Below, piece after piece: positions 1 through 9,561 of a stretch of 20,170 bases of DNA. The translations under genes were made by a program, and so were the position numbers. Below the pieces are notes generated by a model that searched no databases, had not been told where the DNA came from, and saw only the letters and a program-made list of their open reading frames with translations. Origin of the DNA: a virus; IMG/VR virus record IMGVR_UViG_3300044995_000103, positions 1-20,170 of that record. One strand, written 5' to 3'. Position 1 is the first letter of the stretch, and each line of letters starts with the position of its first letter.

Positions 1-381
1 CATCGGACCACGTAGCCTCCAGTTCTCGCCTTGCTTTCCGCCACCAGGCGCTTCCCCGACGCGGCCTGCACCTGTCGCGTAGCTGTCGCCAAGGTTCAGC
101 CACAACACACCATCGTCTGCCAGCAAATCGCGCACCAGGTCGAAAACCTCGACCAGCGTCGCGACGTATTCGTCCGGAGTCTTCTCCAGTCCGATCTGCT
201 GCGGGTGCCCGTAGTCCCGCAGCCCGTAGTACGGCGGGCTCGTCACGCAGCACTGGACACGCACTCCCTGCGCCTTGAGATCGCGCAAGGCCTGTCGGCA
301 GTCACCAAATATCGTCGTGTTTATGTGCGGCACGTCAGTCTTGCCGGTCACTCTGATCGCTCCTCTAGATGCGCCATCCAT
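1..381 (-). CDS. DNA methyltransferase (N4-cytosine/N6-adenine class), 5' part, cut by window edge
   Basis: Only the first 127 codons are present; the frame is open to base 1. Residues 47-58 read TSPPYYGLRDYG, the catalytic motif IV of amino-methyltransferases (the SPPY form is frequent in N4-cytosine enzymes but also occurs in N6-adenine ones). Residues 24-28 (IFGDC) and the later segment VLWLNLGDSYA fit the same fold, in which motif IV precedes the SAM-binding motif. Two starts are possible: the ATG at 381, which overlaps the upstream stop as TAATG, or the in-frame GTG at 351, which has a good GAGGAG Shine-Dalgarno. It is the third gene of a leftward early cluster behind a regulator and an HNH-like protein. 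In phages such enzymes usually protect DNA from host restriction; target specificity cannot be read from this fragment. Confidence 0.87.
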   Translation of the reverse strand, partial: MDGASRGAIRVTGKTDVPHINTTIFGDCRQALRDLKAQGVRVQCCVTSPPYYGLRDYGHPQQIGLEKTPDEYVATLVEVFDLVRDLLADDGVLWLNLGDSYATGAGRVGEAPGGGKQGENWRLRGPM

Positions 382-911
382 TAAGCCAATCCGCTGAACG
401 GCGTCACCGTCCGCCACGCCTTGTTGCGGACGATTCTGTGCGCGTGCGCGTGATTGATGCCGAACTCGCGCGCCACCAGTGCCGCGTTGCCAGTCTCTGC
501 GTAGCGTGCGCGCATGGCTGCGACGATCTCGGTGGTTAGCTTTACGTTCGGACGCTTTCGCGCGGCTGCTTGAGCGATCACGACGTGCCGCACGCCGCAG
601 GACAGTCGACCGTCCTGCGACGCCAGAAGCATTGCCGTTGCTCGCGTCACGTAAAGCTGGTGCTCCGGTGCGATGCATCGCTCGTCGCAGCGTGGCCTTG
701 CAAAAACCCGCCCCTTCAGCAGCTTCCGCCCGGCTGCAAGCCAGAGCACTCTGCGAGGATCCATGGTGCCGGCGCCGACGAGCCGGAATACCGGTTGGCC
801 GTGGTTGTTCATGGCGCCTTGCCATAGAAGGCAATCGTCGTCCTGGACGCACCTGCTGCGGACGTATTCGACCAGCTCCTCTTTGGAGCCGGCCAGTAGT
901 TTCGCGCTCAT
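381..911 (-). CDS. Degenerate HNH-like protein with C-terminal DNA-binding (HTH-like) segment
   Basis: The 176-residue product resembles phage HNH homing-endonuclease-like proteins: C27-LLW-Q-G near the N-terminus, then a C75-x3-C79-x4-H84 stretch (RCDERCIAPEHQLYV) where active relatives have a His-Cys-Asn/Asp-Pro-x-His-Leu core. The residue expected to be the first catalytic His is Arg here (ARPRCD), so nuclease activity may be lost. Residues about 127-167 (from LTTEIVAAMRARYAETG to IVRNKAW) match the helix-turn-helix that often follows the HNH domain in these proteins. The start ATG lies 6 nt after the stop of the Cro-like gene, and its own stop overlaps the methyltransferase ATG, so the three genes look like one operon. 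It may act as a DNA-binding or regulatory protein rather than a nuclease; this is inference. Confidence 0.7.
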   Translation of the reverse strand: MSAKLLAGSKEELVEYVRSRCVQDDDCLLWQGAMNNHGQPVFRLVGAGTMDPRRVLWLAAGRKLLKGRVFARPRCDERCIAPEHQLYVTRATAMLLASQDGRLSCGVRHVVIAQAAARKRPNVKLTTEIVAAMRARYAETGNAALVAREFGINHAHAHRIVRNKAWRTVTPFSGLA

Positions 912-1216: not shown

Positions 1217-1245
1217 TTGACATTACAACGCTATGACCGTATAGT
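1217..1245 (+). promoter_or_regulatory. Strong sigma70-type early rightward promoter
   Basis: TTGACA at 1217-1222, a 17-bp spacer, and TATAGT at 1240-1245. This is a consensus -35 and a 5/6 match for -10 at optimal spacing. The expected transcription start near 1252 leaves a leader of only about 18 nt before the ATG at 1270. The -10 overlaps a CTAT-N6-ATAG dyad, so a bound repressor would occlude it. Confidence 0.8.
1231..1245. promoter_or_regulatory. Operator-like inverted repeat (right site)
   Basis: CTAT at 1231-1234 and ATAG at 1241-1244 flank GACCGT. The right half, CCGTATAGT (1237-1245), is the reverse complement of ACTATACGG, an 8/9 match to ACTATACCG at 1176-1184 in the left site. 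It covers the -10 of the rightward promoter, as expected for a repressor site. Confidence 0.5.
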
Positions 1246-1269: not shown

Positions 1270-2106
1270 ATGGCCTCCTACGTCCCCACCCACTATGCCG
1301 CACAGGCCATTCGGGCCCTGCTTGCGCAGCAGGGCTCAGGGGCCCGGGCGTTGCTTGTCACCGGTGCCCCTGGCACCGGAAAAACGGCGCTCGCGGAGCA
1401 CATCGCCTCGGCCAATGGGGCGCCCTTTTTCTACGCCCTGCTCCACTCTTGGAGCGGGGCAGATGACCTGTTTGCCGGGATCAACGTCCCGGCAGCTGTG
1501 GCTGGGGACGCCGAGCGTGTCCACCAGCCCGGCGTGCTGGCGCTGGTTGCCGAATCCAGCCACAAGCACCCACTCGTCGTGCTGTGCCTCGACGAACTCG
1601 ACAAGGCGCCGGACAGCGTCGAGGCACTGCTGCTCGACTGGCTCCAGTCGGGGCGGGTGCCGGTGCGCCCGGGCGAGCACCTGAACACCCGACTGGACCG
1701 GGTGCTGGTGGTGATCACCAGCAACGGGACTCGCCCCCACACCGACGCCTTGCTGCGCCGGTGCCGGCGGCTTCGCATGCCGCCGATGCCGGAGGACCTT
1801 CGCGTCCGTCTTGCGCATGAGCGCAGCGGTGCGCCCATGGGCGTTGTGAAGCTCATCGACCGCGCCTGCCAGATGGTGGCGCGCGCTGAGGGGAACGAAG
1901 CCCTCAGCCTCCAAGAGATAGCCCACGCCTGCCGCGAGGCGTGGGAAGTGGCCGGCTCCGCCGATGAGGTGGCTGAGACACTGCGCGCCTGGGCCGCGCG
2001 CACCGACGAGGGCGCGGCCGCTGTCTCCACCCCGGAAGTTCGCCGTCTGGTGGCTGCGATCTGGGGCGAAGTGAGCGTCGCCCGCCGCAAGGGGGCGGCG
2101 GCGTGA
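1270..2106 (+). CDS. MoxR/CobS-like AAA+ ATPase
   Basis: 278 residues forming a minimal AAA+ ATPase of the MoxR/AAA_5 type. Walker A is GAPGTGKT (32-39), Walker B is VVLCLDELDKA with D108 and E109, sensor 1 is ITSNGT with N152, and an Arg-rich segment LLRRCRRLRM (161-170) lies where MoxR proteins carry the Arg finger. A helical lid and C-terminal region follow. The ATG at 1270 lies about 18 nt after the predicted transcript start and has no clear Shine-Dalgarno, so translation may be near-leaderless. Its TGA overlaps the GTG of the VWA gene as GTGA. MoxR/CobS ATPases work with VWA partners as ATP-driven remodelers or metal chelatases; the substrate here is unknown. Confidence 0.9.
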   Translation: MASYVPTHYAAQAIRALLAQQGSGARALLVTGAPGTGKTALAEHIASANGAPFFYALLHSWSGADDLFAGINVPAAVAGDAERVHQPGVLALVAESSHKHPLVVLCLDELDKAPDSVEALLLDWLQSGRVPVRPGEHLNTRLDRVLVVITSNGTRPHTDALLRRCRRLRMPPMPEDLRVRLAHERSGAPMGVVKLIDRACQMVARAEGNEALSLQEIAHACREAWEVAGSADEVAETLRAWAARTDEGAAAVSTPEVRRLVAAIWGEVSVARRKGAAA

Positions 2107-3911
2107 TCACGACCGCCGACGCCATCCGCATCCTAGGCGGCCCGCGCGCCGAGGCGCTCGCCCGCGAGACCGAGGCTGCGGCACGCTCACGCCGCGCAGC
2201 AGCGGCGCGCTTGCTGGCGGACATCAAACGTCCCGTCACCCTGCGTGACGTGCGCCGGGTCTGGTCGCACGAGCACAAGACTTATCCGCGCGACCGTGGC
2301 GGGTACCTGAATACTGCCCGCACCAACACCGCCATCTACATGGTGGCGGGGATCGCCTTCGCTGTGCTCTCAGGCGACCTCTCGCACTGGCCGAAACGTC
2401 ATGTCCGCGTGGACGTGATCGACCGCCTCATCAGCCGCTACGGGCCGGACTTCCGACTCGACCCATACCTTGATGAATACTTGCAGATGCTCGACCGTGT
2501 TTCGGACGCGATCCTGGACCTGGTCGTCTCGAACATGCTGGAGCGCGTGCGGAGTGGGCAAGAACTCGAACACGTGTGGGCTGGCGTGTCCGTCAATTTC
2601 GGCATGTACGCCCACACGGATTACTTGCCTCATGAGGCATACCAGGCCGCCGAGCGCGAGCTTGCACGGCGGCAGGACCACACCACCGGCACCGACCGTG
2701 TGGTGCAGACGCCTGTCGGTGTCGCAAACGCCGACGCCCACGGCGGCGACGGCAACAGCGGTGAGGTGGCTCACCGCGCACAGACTTCCGCGCCTGACCG
2801 GGATGGCTGCGAGAGCGCCGCGTGCGACGCTGCCGCAGACACGCCCGACGGCACGCCCGAGGGGACCGGGGCCGGGACCAACTGCAGCAATGCAGGTGGC
2901 CGGACCGCAACCGACGGCGCCTCCGCCCGTGAGGGGGAGGGGACGCCCACCGGCCAGGGCGACGACGGAGGGGAAAACCCGACCGGGGAGATGGGCTCCC
3001 ACCTGTCTGGTACGCAGACCGCCGCCGACAAAGGGGCCGCTGGCAACGGCTTCTCGGCTGAGGGCGACGGCACTGGTGCCGGGCAGGATTCGAGCGCTGC
3101 CGCAGCCCAGGCGCAGGGCGAATCGCAGTCCATCGGCGCGGCCGATGCGGGCGCTGCGAGCGGCTCCACATCGGAGTCCGTAGTCCTCGGGGACGCCGAG
3201 TCACCCGCTGACGCCTATTCCGATGGCGGGCAACACTTGTCCGCCGATCCCATGGTTTGCGGTGCGCGCGAGCGGCGCGCCATGCGAGAGACCGCAGACC
3301 TGCTACGCCGGATCATCGAGACCGAGATCGGCGCGCGCGGGCGCGAGACGCCACGCGTCGATGCACGCACCCTGGTGCGCGAGATTGTTTCGCGCCGCTG
3401 CGCCATCGGGCGCGCGCGACGGCACGAGGCCGACATCCGCGAGCTGGTCCTGGCCGTCGATGAGTCGGGTTCGTGCAGCGCCGTCGTGAATACCCTCTAC
3501 GCCACAGCGCTCACCATCGCCAGGAACTTGCCGTCGGGCAAGGCGAGCGTGCTCCTGCACAGCAACGGGTACTGTGTGCGGGTCGCCGACGGTGCGCCAT
3601 GCGCGCCGTGGCTCAAAAAAGAGATCGCATTGCGCGAGCATCTGCTGTCACGGCACTACTACGCAGTCAGCCAGCAGGCAGCCAGCGCCGACATCTGGCG
3701 CGCCGTCGCCAAGCGACGCCCTGGCCTTGTGCTGGCGATGGGCGACCACGACGCAGACTGGATGCTTGAGATCATGAGTGACGCCGGCACCAACACGCTC
3801 GCAATCCATCATCACGCCGTGGCCCCTGGCTACGGCGGCGTGCGCAGGATCGGGCCGGTGCGCGATGCGATGAGCGCTGCCGCTTCTCTCAAATCCTTTA
3901 TAGGATGGTGA
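2103..3911 (+). CDS. VWA-domain protein with long low-complexity linker (CobT-like architecture)
   Basis: 602 residues in three parts. Residues 1-195 are a helical N-terminal region of no family I recognise. Residues about 200-380 are a Gly/Ala/Asp/Thr/Ser-rich, probably disordered linker. Residues about 385-602 are a von Willebrand A domain with an intact MIDAS: D452-E-S454-G-S456 after the LVLAV strand, and a second acidic loop GDHDAD (547-552) after the LVLAM strand. A disordered acidic middle before a C-terminal VWA is the layout of CobT, the partner of the CobS ATPase, and CobS/CobT-like pairs are annotated in some phages. The GTG start overlaps the ATPase stop, implying translational coupling and co-assembly. 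No cobalamin gene is nearby, so a chelatase role is not supported; remodelling of a host or phage complex is an alternative. Confidence 0.86.
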   Translation: MITTADAIRILGGPRAEALARETEAAARSRRAAAARLLADIKRPVTLRDVRRVWSHEHKTYPRDRGGYLNTARTNTAIYMVAGIAFAVLSGDLSHWPKRHVRVDVIDRLISRYGPDFRLDPYLDEYLQMLDRVSDAILDLVVSNMLERVRSGQELEHVWAGVSVNFGMYAHTDYLPHEAYQAAERELARRQDHTTGTDRVVQTPVGVANADAHGGDGNSGEVAHRAQTSAPDRDGCESAACDAAADTPDGTPEGTGAGTNCSNAGGRTATDGASAREGEGTPTGQGDDGGENPTGEMGSHLSGTQTAADKGAAGNGFSAEGDGTGAGQDSSAAAAQAQGESQSIGAADAGAASGSTSESVVLGDAESPADAYSDGGQHLSADPMVCGARERRAMRETADLLRRIIETEIGARGRETPRVDARTLVREIVSRRCAIGRARRHEADIRELVLAVDESGSCSAVVNTLYATALTIARNLPSGKASVLLHSNGYCVRVADGAPCAPWLKKEIALREHLLSRHYYAVSQQAASADIWRAVAKRRPGLVLAMGDHDADWMLEIMSDAGTNTLAIHHHAVAPGYGGVRRIGPVRDAMSAAASLKSFIGW

Positions 3912-3912
3912 A

Positions 3913-4128
3913 ATGACAACGTATTGCGCCCGGTGCGGCGCTGAACGCACCAATGACCAGTGCCCGCAGTGCGGGCACACTGGCACGACAGACGTGCCGC
4001 CGTCGCACGAGCCGTGCGCCTATTGCGGGGCACGGCCCACATGGCCCGTCACCTGGACGGTGGACGGGCAGGAGAGCACGGTCTATCTGTGCTCGTCCTG
4101 TGATGACCTGGAGAGCAGGGACGAATAG
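3913..4128 (+). CDS. Small double zinc-ribbon protein
   Basis: 71 residues with four CxxC pairs: C5/C8, C17/C20, C35/C38 and C60/C63. The first two pairs make a compact ribbon (CARCGAERTNDQCPQCG) and the last two a second, wider one (CAYCGARP then YLCSSC), so the protein can bind two zinc ions. The ATG is one base beyond the VWA stop, with AGGA about 7 nt upstream, so it is the third gene of the ATPase-VWA cassette. The C-terminus is acidic. Zinc ribbons of this kind bind nucleic acid or protein; it may be an adaptor of the cassette. A specific function cannot be assigned. Confidence 0.82.
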   Translation: MTTYCARCGAERTNDQCPQCGHTGTTDVPPSHEPCAYCGARPTWPVTWTVDGQESTVYLCSSCDDLESRDE

Positions 4129-5254: not shown

Positions 5255-6184
5255 ATGAGCAAAACCGCACTTAAAGCCGCCGTCAGCACTACCGCTGCCG
5301 CAACGCAGAAGCCGTCAGCCAAACCCACCACCATCCACGGCTTCCTGGAAGCCTACAAGGGAGAGATCGCCCGGGCGCTTCCGCGCCACATGACGGCGGA
5401 CCGCATGGCACGCATTGCGCTCACTGAGTGCCGCAAGAATCCGGCGCTCATGAAGTGCGATCCGGCGACGCTCTTCGGTGCCGTCATCCAATGCGCCCAG
5501 CTCGGGCTGGAGCCAGGTGGCGCGCTCGGGCACGCATACCTCATCCCGTTCGAGAACCGCAAGCGCGGCACGATGGATGCGCAATTCATCATCGGCTATC
5601 GCGGCATGCTCGATCTTGCGCGCCGCTCCGGGCAGATCGTCAGCATCAGCGCCAGGGAGGTACGCGAGAAGGACAAGTTCGCGTACCGCTACGGCACGGA
5701 CGAGTTCATCGAGCACGTCCCGGCCGGCGGAGAGCGCGGAGAGCTGACGCATGTCTACGCAGTGGCGCGACTCAAGGACGGCGGCGTGCAGTTCGAGGTG
5801 CTGACGCGCGCCGAGATCGAGCGCATCCGCGACGCAAGCCAAGGCTACAAGATGGCCGTCAAGTTTAACCGCACGGATTCCCCATGGGTCACGCACTTCA
5901 CCGAGATGGCGAAGAAAACCGCCATCCGGCGCCTCTTCAAGTACTTGCCTGTCAGTATCGAACTCCAGCGCGCCGTGGCCCTGGACGAGGCCGGTGAGGA
6001 AGGTTTCAGCCAGGACAACGCCTTTGTCATCGAGGGCGTGGCGAGCAGCGTGCAGGAGGAGTCCGACGAGATCGACACCGCCGCAGACAATGGCAAGACC
6101 GGCGAGAAATGGCAGCAGACGCCGGAGGAGATCGAGGCTATCCGGCAGCGCGAGATGCAAGAGGCGAGGACGGATTTTGAGTGA
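5255..6184 (+). CDS. recT: RecT family single-strand annealing protein
   Basis: 309 residues. RecT proteins coat single-stranded DNA and anneal complementary strands. Recognisable segments include ALTECRKNPALMKCDPATLFGA with QLGLEPGG after it, FIIGYRGMLDLARRSGQI, the region around SPWVTHFTEMAKKTAIRRLF, and KYLPVSIE. The first 25 residues are Ala/Thr/Lys-rich and the last 50 are acidic and Gln/Glu-rich, consistent with a flexible tail for partner proteins. AAGGAG precedes the ATG by 6 nt. It pairs with the YqaJ exonuclease upstream. Confidence 0.94.
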   Translation: MSKTALKAAVSTTAAATQKPSAKPTTIHGFLEAYKGEIARALPRHMTADRMARIALTECRKNPALMKCDPATLFGAVIQCAQLGLEPGGALGHAYLIPFENRKRGTMDAQFIIGYRGMLDLARRSGQIVSISAREVREKDKFAYRYGTDEFIEHVPAGGERGELTHVYAVARLKDGGVQFEVLTRAEIERIRDASQGYKMAVKFNRTDSPWVTHFTEMAKKTAIRRLFKYLPVSIELQRAVALDEAGEEGFSQDNAFVIEGVASSVQEESDEIDTAADNGKTGEKWQQTPEEIEAIRQREMQEARTDFE

Positions 6185-6200
6185 TAGCAATGCCTGGAGA

Positions 6201-6315
6201 GGCAGGGCTAGGCGTGGCGCGGCAAGGCGTGGCTGGGCGGTGCCCGGCCTGGCTTGGTCAGGCGCGGCGGGGCCGGGCATGGCAGGGCCGGGCATGGCAG
6301 GGCAGGGCAGGGTGC
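6201..6315 (+). repeat. GGCNN pentanucleotide tandem array (23 units)
   Basis: Read in steps of five from 6201, 20 of 23 units begin GGC: ggcag ggcta ggcgt ggcgc and so on. The exceptions are tgccc (6241), ggtca (6256) and ggtgc (6311). Positions 4-5 vary, with AG, AT, CG and GT common; the last units repeat ggcat/ggcag. The array lies wholly between recT and the next gene, and a period of 5 does not fit a single reading frame. The transcript would be G-rich. Confidence 0.85.
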
Positions 6316-6318
6316 AGT

Positions 6319-6353
6319 GGATGGTCGTCAGACCATCCGGTGCGTCTTGCACC
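6319..6353 (+). other. Two adjacent stem-loops after the pentamer array
   Basis: GGATGGTC (6319-6326) and GACCATCC (6331-6338) form a perfect 8-bp stem with a 4-nt loop GTCA. Directly next to it GGTGC (6339-6343) pairs with GCACC (6349-6353) around 5 nt. GGTGCA (6311-6316) at the end of the array could instead pair with TGCACC (6348-6353), enclosing the first hairpin. No T-run follows, so this may be an mRNA-processing or structural element rather than a terminator. Confidence 0.5.
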
Positions 6354-6360
6354 ACATCGA

Positions 6361-6377
6361 TAACACATGGAGTGTTA
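6361..6377 (+). promoter_or_regulatory. Hairpin holding the Shine-Dalgarno of the downstream gene
   Basis: TAACAC (6361-6366) pairs with GTGTTA (6372-6377) around a 5-nt loop ATGGA. The Shine-Dalgarno GGAG (6369-6372) lies in the loop and first stem base, 6 nt before the ATG at 6379. Translation of that gene may depend on this structure. Confidence 0.4.
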
Positions 6378-6378
6378 C

Positions 6379-6948
6379 ATGAAAACCGTTACCGTTGAAA
6401 TTCGCGGCACTTCTCCTCTGCTGATCCATCGCTTCACGGAGCAGAACGAGGTTGAGAAGGCAACCAGGAGAGTCATTGTCGATTCGGTTAAGGATCCGCG
6501 TGAAGAAGCCAAGAAGGTCGCTTACATCGCCGATGATGGCACGTTCTACTTCTCGGCTTCGGCAATCCCGAATGCGATGAGCACGGCCGGCAGCAATCAC
6601 AAGATGAAAGGCTCCAGAAAGTCGCTGCGCTTCATCGTGCCGAGCGCCGTCCGCATCACGTCCGACACGATCACGATTCTGAACGGCGCAGGGCCAGCCA
6701 AGGATTTCGAAGTTGACGGCAGGCCAGTCACCATCCCTGCAACCAAAGGTCGTGTCATGCGCTATCGCCCGCGATTCAACGAATGGGGAGCGGTGTTTGA
6801 CTTGGTCATCAACGACAATCTACTGTCACTTGACACCGCGCACCAGCTTCTCAATGAGGCAGGTGAGCAGGTCGGCATCGGTGACTTCAGGCCCGAGAAG
6901 CGCGGTCCGTTCGGCTGCTTCCGTGTCACGCGGTTCGAAGAACAGTGA
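6379..6948 (+). CDS. Phage protein with RAMP/Cas7-like sequence features, near recombination genes
   Basis: 189 residues from the ATG at 6379, chosen because GGAG lies 6 nt upstream; an ATG at 6367 would place the start inside a hairpin loop. The N-terminal strand VTVEIRGTSPLLIHRF and the C-terminal GIGDFRPEKRGPFGCFRVTRF resemble the ends of RAMP/Cas7-type folds, where a first strand followed by Pro-Leu and a final Gly-rich G-x-F-G-x-F-x-V segment are typical. No nuclease motif is visible. Position just after recT suggests a single-strand nucleic-acid-binding role, but this is inference from weak similarity, and no specific family is certain. It follows the pentamer array and may be separately regulated. 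Confidence 0.55.
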   Translation: MKTVTVEIRGTSPLLIHRFTEQNEVEKATRRVIVDSVKDPREEAKKVAYIADDGTFYFSASAIPNAMSTAGSNHKMKGSRKSLRFIVPSAVRITSDTITILNGAGPAKDFEVDGRPVTIPATKGRVMRYRPRFNEWGAVFDLVINDNLLSLDTAHQLLNEAGEQVGIGDFRPEKRGPFGCFRVTRFEEQ

Positions 6949-8592: not shown

Positions 8593-9055
8593 TAATCCCA
8601 GTCGGGACGACCAGAAAGTCTCGACTTGGTTTTCGTGGGCCGAAACGTGGCATTCTGAGCTTGCGGAACGGCACGGCATCGACAACCGTCCGCCGCAGGA
8701 CACCATTCCGGCCATCAAAGCGACTGCGGAGCGCATGGACCGAGTGAGGGAGACGCTCGGATACCCGGTACTGGTCAGCAGTTGGTATCGGTGCCTGCGC
8801 TTGAATCGATTGCTCGGCAGCAGCGATACTAGTCAGCATGTCCAGGGCCGTGCAGTGGACTTCAGGTGCCCATCATTCGGCAAGCCCGAGATGGTCTGGA
8901 AGTTCCTGCGTCAGATGCGGCAGCAGCTTGGGATTGACCAGTTGATTCTGGAGTTCGCGAACAGGCCCAGTGGGGGTTGGGTTCATGTTAGCTTCACCGA
9001 CCAGCCGCGTTACATGGCGCTAATCATTGATGAGACAGGAACGAGAGTCGCGTGA
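8561..9055 (+). CDS. Endolysin, peptidase M15 family (D-Ala-D-Ala carboxypeptidase-like)
   Basis: 164 residues. The zinc ligands and catalytic residues of the M15 family are in order: SQHVQGRAVDF with H93 and D100, QLILEF with E131, and WVHVSF with H142. The enzyme cleaves peptide bonds in peptidoglycan. No signal peptide is present, so it depends on the holin for release. The ATG at 8561 overlaps the holin gene; there is no strong Shine-Dalgarno, suggesting translational coupling. Its TGA overlaps the Rz start as GTGA. Confidence 0.9.
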   Translation: MTIIGQSQVTSNPSRDDQKVSTWFSWAETWHSELAERHGIDNRPPQDTIPAIKATAERMDRVRETLGYPVLVSSWYRCLRLNRLLGSSDTSQHVQGRAVDFRCPSFGKPEMVWKFLRQMRQQLGIDQLILEFANRPSGGWVHVSFTDQPRYMALIIDETGTRVA

Positions 9056-9561
9056 TCGAACGCATTCTCCTCAGCCAACTGCTGCAAAAAGTCCTGATTG
9101 TTGCCATCGTCGGGCTTGCCGCCTTCATCGCTGGGCACGTGCGAGGCGTCAAGGTGGAGCGCGAGAAGGCGTTGCAGCAGATGCTTGTCATTGAGCGGGC
9201 AAGGGCAGAAGCTGAAGCGGTAGCGCGGGAGCGCGAGCGGCGAATGCAGAAGGAGGCAGACAATGCGCGAGTTGAACTTAGTCAAGCCCTGGCAAAAATC
9301 GCTGAGCAGGAATCTCGTATTCGCCGTCTTAGTGCTGATGTTCGCGGGTTGCGCGACCAAATCAGTGCCTACGCCGCCGGTCCAGCCACCGGCGATTCCG
9401 TCGCCGCCTGTCGAGAGCGCGCCGTCAACCTCGGAACCCTGGTTGCCGAAGGCGCAGAACTTCTCGTCGAAGGTGCAGGGCTACTTGCAGCGTGTGCGGC
9501 AGATCACGACAGGCGATCAGCCGAAGTGACGGCTTTGCTCAGAGCATGGCCGCGGCCTTGA
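9052..9561 (+). CDS. Rz-like inner-membrane spanin subunit
   Basis: 169 residues: an N-terminal membrane anchor (about 12-30, QKVLIVAIVGLAAFIAG), a long charged periplasmic coiled-coil rich in Glu, Arg and Ala (about 33-105), and a variable C-terminus. This is the i-spanin layout; together with an outer-membrane lipoprotein it disrupts the outer membrane after the endolysin has acted. It begins with GTG overlapping the endolysin stop. The Rz1 gene is nested within it in another frame. The 3' end lies 7 bp from the convergent tail operon. Confidence 0.88.
   Translation: MIERILLSQLLQKVLIVAIVGLAAFIAGHVRGVKVEREKALQQMLVIERARAEAEAVARERERRMQKEADNARVELSQALAKIAEQESRIRRLSADVRGLRDQISAYAAGPATGDSVAACRERAVNLGTLVAEGAELLVEGAGLLAACAADHDRRSAEVTALLRAWPRP
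9263..9529 (+). CDS. Rz1-like outer-membrane lipoprotein spanin, nested in Rz
   Basis: 88 residues, fully inside the Rz gene in a different frame. A signal peptide (SRNLVFAVLVLMFAGC) ends in a lipobox with C30, followed by a proline-rich region (PTPPVQPPAIPSPPVESAP) and a short helix. These are the marks of Rz1 o-spanins. AAGGAGG lies just upstream of its ATG. Confidence 0.9.
   Translation: MRELNLVKPWQKSLSRNLVFAVLVLMFAGCATKSVPTPPVQPPAIPSPPVESAPSTSEPWLPKAQNFSSKVQGYLQRVRQITTGDQPK

Follow-up and report, generated by a model that had tools for sequence, protein, structure and literature searches.

MoxR-VWA couples are widespread chaperones, of which few clients are known. The viral couples have so far been read either as tail-assembly factors or as cobalamin enzymes. 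NorD, the VWA partner in the NorQ/NorD system, is built of an N-domain, a linker, and a VWA domain (PMC13036017), and the mechanism described for NorQD is the basis of the analogy of ring, pore, and linker drawn below (PMC9976466, PMC13036017). Among the viral couples, those of ATV and of the group 2.2 jumbo phages have been assigned to virion or tail assembly, the vWA protein of the jumbo phages being fused to a peptidase (PMC3893208, PMC7824862).

Here, we analyze a couple of this kind, followed by a small third gene, in an IMG/VR virus record of an uncultivated phage (IMGVR_UViG_3300044995_000103; the whole stretch of 20,170 bases is called the window). The record is probably a fragment, because its 5′ end lies inside a DNA methylase gene and its other end in tail genes. 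The features of the locus are as follows.

1217-1245, plus strand: sigma-70-like promoter, TTGACA-N17-TATAGT, in the interval that separates the cassette from a divergent Cro/YdaS-like gene (11/12 match)
1270-2106, plus strand: MoxR-type AAA+ ATPase, 278 aa, with a predicted CbbQ/NorQ-like fold (Pfam AAA_5, AF2 model, PDB folds)
1363-1386, plus strand: Walker A of the ATPase, GAPGTGKT, kept in relatives
1576-1596, plus strand: Walker B of the ATPase, VVLCLDE, kept in relatives
1723-1725, plus strand: sensor-1 Asn152 of the ATPase, kept in relatives
2103-3911, plus strand: putative VWA-domain adaptor protein, 602 aa (AF2 layout, invariant DxSxS, BFVD match to a VWFA protein, position next to the ATPase)
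2673-3248, plus strand: predicted disordered acidic linker of the VWA protein, residues 191-382 (pLDDT below 50, composition)
2739-2765, plus strand: linker motif HGGDGNSGE (sequence comparison of homologues)
3441-3908, plus strand: predicted VWA-like alpha/beta domain, residues 447-602 (AF2 model, homologue alignment, structure searches)
3459-3476, plus strand: DESGSC of the VWA domain, the DxSxS of the MIDAS
3741-3752, plus strand: second conserved Asp (GDHD) of the VWA domain, D548
3913-4128, plus strand: zinc-ribbon protein, 71 aa, four CxxC pairs (DZR match below cut-off; follows the pair in close relatives)
about 4009-4107, plus strand: second ribbon, EPCAYCGARPTWPVTW...LCxxCD, the conserved core (homologue comparison)

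The three ORFs of the cassette, for the ATPase, the VWA protein, and the zinc-ribbon protein, are tightly packed on the plus strand. The ATPase and VWA genes share a GTGA at their junction, and a single base separates the VWA stop from the zinc-ribbon gene; both features, which were part of the original prediction, are seen directly in the junctions. The proposal of a three-gene cassette under its own promoter also holds, with the ORFs at the positions given above and a near-consensus TTGACA-N17-TATAGT at 1217-1245, of which one was found against 0.2 expected in shuffles. The upstream regions of the relatives of the cassette are too poorly conserved to be aligned. The reading as one translationally coupled operon with a MoxR-VWA couple is likewise supported, and the early position proposed for it is borne out by the divergent Cro-like gene, the promoter match in 11 of 12 bases, and the genes for RecE-like (YqaJ) and RecT proteins that lie downstream, the tail genes being on the opposite strand. 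It is likely that the cassette comprises the first genes switched on by the phage.

Some further features of the window may be mentioned here. The start of the DNA methylase gene (1-395, minus strand, motif TSPPYYGLRDYG) is cut by the contig end, and next to it, also leftward, are an HNH endonuclease gene (381-911) and the Cro/YdaS-like gene (918-1157). An Rz-like spanin gene at 9052-9561 follows the endolysin gene and has a lipoprotein Rz1-like gene (9263-9529) nested in another frame. Between recT and the next gene, at 6186-6315, there is an array of GGCNN units; such arrays, with a period of 5 bases and 9-26 units, also occur in L044 (G003, minus strand) and in L056 at 5592-6828 (G008), whereas the scan of the other related contigs showed none.

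The ATPase matches the AAA_5 family of Pfam with E=1.2e-14, its bpMoxR match being below the cut-off, and among the best 25 of the 28 NCBIfam matches the top model is MadB_ATPase (1.9e-10, cut-off 475 bits), a family on which no informative paper was found in the literature. The AlphaFold2 model of the protein has a pLDDT of 87, and in the comparison with PDB folds CbbQ or NorQ takes each of the first ten ranks, with Z between 17.5 and 20.1, the best CbbQ matches being 6l1q (Z 20.1) and 5c3c (Z 19.7). The next fold family is Clp, with Z of at most 16.6. The model contains a helix-2 insert and a pre-sensor-1 hairpin, with predicted strands at residues 69-71/85-87 and 129-133/136-139. The Walker A, Walker B, and sensor 1 motifs had been described as intact, and these, along with the Arg163/164 pair before the lid, are indeed kept in all aligned relatives, which are 34-88% identical. 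In the near clade, the pN/pS values of 0.14-0.30 indicate strong purifying selection; with the motifs kept, the gene is therefore not a chance ORF. The assignment as a constrained MoxR AAA+ protein with a predicted CbbQ/NorQ-type fold is strongly supported.

For the second protein, the AF2 model predicts a helical N-terminus, a disordered linker of ~190 residues, and a C-terminal alpha/beta domain, the model of the whole chain being poor (pLDDT 56). The linker (residues 191-382) contains 31 acidic and 6 basic residues, and its HGGDGNSGE motif is conserved throughout the near clade as well as in L019, altered in L027 and in the protein of the Gloeobacter plasmid, and absent from L016 and L018. 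The DxSGSC motif follows the first strand of the VWA domain and a GD pair follows a later strand, a MIDAS-like placement. The original prediction of an intact MIDAS is correct for the DxSxS (D453, S455, and S457) and for the second Asp, D548, which are invariant in ten VWA homologues, but not for the MIDAS Thr, as none of the Thr positions from C458 to G547 is invariant, or nearly so, in the ten aligned sequences. Because this Thr is not conserved, metal-dependent client binding by the VWA domain may not apply here.

The sequence of this protein has no family match in Pfam, NCBIfam, PHROG, or PADLOC, and its relatives match VWA_CoxE at 0.0013-0.06, below the cut-off. A profile built from the broad VWA alignment found no match among PDB sequences. 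Among the viral models of BFVD, a VWFA protein of a phage ranks first (E=3.3e-4); a CobT-like Gordonia phage protein (weak) and ATV ORF892 (rank 15, E=0.057) come lower in the list. The PDB fold matches of the domain are generic Rossmann-like ones with Z<8; they include the VWA-bearing Ro60/TROVE at ranks 4 and 19, which we do not take as proof. With this reservation, the model and the motifs point to a divergent VWA domain protein.

The third gene had been described as a double zinc ribbon. The four CxxC pairs are present in the window, but the Pfam DZR match (E=9.8e-5) reaches 22.9 bits against a cut-off of 27.3, and of the two ribbons the second alone is conserved among relatives, the first one being missing in L003, L005, and L007. 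A match of the second ribbon to the Lar restriction-alleviation family (E=0.099) was judged too weak to be considered. The earlier expectation that the ribbon gene would stand beside related pairs gave a split outcome: it lies 3′ of the pair in all six close-clade loci with readable flanks, at a spacing of -4 to +3 bases, but in none of the six distant ones. There, the third gene of L018, L019, and the Gloeobacter plasmid encodes a common protein of 126-150 aa that is unrelated to the ribbon, that of L016 a zf-HC2-like protein of 70 aa (weak match), and that of Thermovibrio a protein of 117 aa. Two contigs, L032 and L011, have the ribbon but no working pair. The core consists of the ATPase/VWA pair, with the third gene as a replaceable, clade-specific accessory, because the ribbon accompanies 6/6 close and 0/6 distant pairs and occurs without a working pair; the ribbon is no obligate third subunit. 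The third gene is perhaps an extra adaptor or regulator.

Two cases of a third gene without the pair can be described further. At 5602-8404 of L011, the ATPase is gone, the VWA gene is cut to its last 57 residues, adjoining genes for an ISL3-like transposase and a Dam-like methylase, and the zinc ribbon is intact, with 77-79% identity to that of the window. The cyanobacterial third gene likewise occurs without the pair on a Moorena plasmid (L066, 5971-6402), where it is followed by a 3′-5′ exonuclease gene.

Searches with tblastn using the ATPase, VWA, and zinc-ribbon proteins, as well as the ATPases of L019 and L027, gave no match in 50,697 GenBank phage records. The relatives found in IMG/VR are a close group, L002-L007, and the more distant L016/L017, L018, and L019; outside IMG/VR, the pair is carried by the MAG contig L027 and by the cyanobacterial and Aquificota plasmids Gloeobacter pGMOR1 and Thermovibrio pTHEAM01. 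Further viral scans yielded essentially no additional pairs, and a sample of the phylum around the L027 MAG gave one further, weak ATPase. The VWA gene directly follows the ATPase gene in all 12 loci where the ATPase is complete and the sequence after it can be read (window, L002, L003, L005, L006, L007, L016, L018, L019, L027, Gloeobacter, and Thermovibrio). The two genes overlap by 4 nt in ten of these, the starts in L018 and L027 having been hand-corrected from the junction sequences, by 1 nt in L016, and are separated by a gap in L019. L008/L020/L062, whose ATPase frame breaks about 140 residues in and where no VWA protein is recognized downstream, looks like a decayed copy of the pair. 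On pGMOR1 (L037, 4593-8750), the pair lies downstream of genes for a type I-D Cas3′ and a DNA methyltransferase.

When all ORFs of eleven contigs are compared, the ATPase and the VWA protein are the only families common to those that carry the pair; tail protein J and the tape measure protein are each present in four contigs. This is suggestive of a pair that travels as a self-contained, horizontally mobile module, because no other family is shared by its carriers. In the 12 related records, which are fragments, YqaJ occurs in four, RecT in three, and an integrase in two. The absence of a co-conserved phage gene could be an artefact of incomplete contigs.

The two members of the pair differ in how they vary. 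Between the window and L005-L007, the ATPase is 77-79% identical, the helical segment before the VWA domain 33-35%, and the VWA domain 19-24%, and the second zinc ribbon, on the far side of the diverged domain, is still kept. Toward L002/L003, the VWA domain is 76% identical. If the client is selected by the VWA part, a motor that stays constant next to a varying VWA part is what would be expected; the low identity of the VWA domain could also reflect a slow, long divergence rather than the swapping of adaptors.

On this basis, we suggest that the pair may be an early-expressed, mobile remodelling machine similar to NorQD and CbbQO, whose client would be a complex of host proteins that varies from one host to another; we assign this reading a probability of about 45%. 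By analogy with NorQD and CbbQO, the ATPase would form a hexameric ring, on which the VWA protein would dock with its VWA domain, being held in the pore. The client would be bound through the MIDAS face and the N-terminal domain of the VWA protein, and ATP hydrolysis would pull or twist the linker, where the HGGDGNSGE motif is located, so that the client is opened. Such a phage-borne machine would be expressed at the start of the lytic program. A client belonging to the host, for takeover or counter-defence, seems more probable than a virion or replication protein of the phage, because the motor is constant, the VWA part has either been exchanged or diverged extremely, and the carriers have no further phage gene in common; the early position and the lack of a common phage partner favor it as well. 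Early remodelling of a host complex is also the most economical reading, since no other phage gene is co-conserved, and counter-defence is one possibility among several for its purpose. A bolder version, which we regard as doubtful, would have a constant MoxR motor with exchangeable VWA adaptors and clade-specific small accessories dismantling a variable host complex early, e.g., a defence, replication, or transcription assembly, and thus forming a family of ATP-driven anti-host disassemblers that has not been described before.

The alternatives differ mainly in the client. Within the clade of the window, the strongest rival is a role in recombination or replication, where the machine would load, unload, or remodel the RecE/RecT or replication complex of the phage itself. 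A YqaJ exonuclease lies near the pair in four records (window, G003, G005, and G006), of which three (window, G005, and G006) also have RecT there; the neighborhood includes a Cas4-type exonuclease in L005 and a primase in L002, and the conjugative plasmid pCAR1, which carries a MoxR-DUF3150-NorD cluster, has SSB, RecT, and lambda-exonuclease genes about 10 kb away. However, YqaJ and RecT are present in 4/12 and 3/12 of the (fragmentary) related records, the exonucleases differ, and no such recombinase is annotated near the pairs on the cyanobacterial and Thermovibrio plasmids. Early-region placement alone could explain the proximity. We judge this role to be unlikely. Less likely still is that the pair is cargo by which the element shields its host from other phages, as proposed for the vWA-MoxR ternary conflict systems. 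There, the couple acts as a switch (PMC7159879), and the occurrence of our pair on plasmids would fit, but the cassette contains none of the described third components and no nuclease, toxin, or other effector, PADLOC gives generic AAA matches only and none for the VWA or ribbon proteins, and the promoter is placed where an early lytic promoter would be.

The two functions usually given to viral couples are disfavoured. A chaperone of virion or tail assembly, like ATV p618/p892 or the group 2.2 jumbo-phage pair, has viral precedent (PMC3893208, PMC7824862), and ATV ORF892 turns up in the structure search with the VWA protein (rank 15, E=0.057). The pair, however, sits with the early genes on the strand opposite to the tail genes, no structural gene is common to all carriers (tail protein J and tape measure in four contigs each), and no annotated virion operon adjoins the plasmid pairs, which makes such a chaperone very unlikely. 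Least plausible is a CobS/CobT-type cobaltochelatase that would increase cobalamin by recruiting the CobN of the host, a role that has been proposed in haloviruses and cyanophages. CobST clusters occur widely in viruses (PMC8651126), and the weak match of the VWA protein to the CobT-like Gordonia phage protein points the same way, but no CobS/CobT model is among the Pfam or NCBIfam matches listed (for the ATPase, the best 25 of 28 in NCBIfam), PHROG 249 ("porphyrin biosynthesis") gives a partial weak match only, and the canonical MIDAS Thr is not conserved. CobN is present in 0/12 of the related records, which are fragments, in agreement with the original statement that there is no cobalamin gene.

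A compact, early, and mobile couple of this kind, in which the motor stays constant and the adaptor changes, is a tractable system for the choice of clients by VWA adaptors, and it may show which host complex some phages dismantle or remodel first.

Among the characterized systems, NorQ/NorD, which activates nitric oxide reductase, resembles the cassette in having, with CbbQ, the nearest ATPase fold and an adjoining protein of the layout predicted here, N-domain, linker, and VWA; the cassette differs in having no NOR genes, an unrecognized VWA sequence, no conserved MIDAS Thr, a small third gene, and a place in an early phage operon. The Rubisco activase CbbQ/CbbO provides the best fold match of the ATPase (6l1q, Z 20.1; 5c3c, Z 19.7), but the cassette has neither a CbbO-like VWA sequence match nor a Rubisco context. 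ATV p618/p892 and the jumbo-phage group 2.2 pairs are likewise virus-encoded MoxR-vWA couples (PMC3893208, PMC7824862), whereas the cassette is an early module without peptidase fusion. In haloviral and cyanophage CobS-CobT, too, a tailed virus has an AAA+ gene next to a VWA gene (PMC8651126, PMC7911831), but the present proteins are not members of the CobS/CobT families, are without CobN in the 12 records, and have a different VWA signature. The MoxR-DUF3150-NorD cluster of pCAR1/SXT/R391 also combines MoxR with VWA on mobile elements (PMC2642839), with DUF3150 between the two, whereas the ATPase and VWA genes of the window overlap; hhalign finds the ATPases remotely related (82% probability) and no detectable relation of the VWA proteins (4.7%). 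The vWA-MoxR ternary conflict systems have the pair and a third gene (PMC7159879), but the cassette is without VMAP, iSTAND, FtsH, or beta-propeller, and its third gene encodes a 71-aa zinc ribbon. The original view that the exact trio is not a described system is supported by this comparison: the principle is common to the known viral, mobile, and conflict couples, and it is in the VWA sequence, the neighbors, and the third gene that the family of the cassette differs from them.
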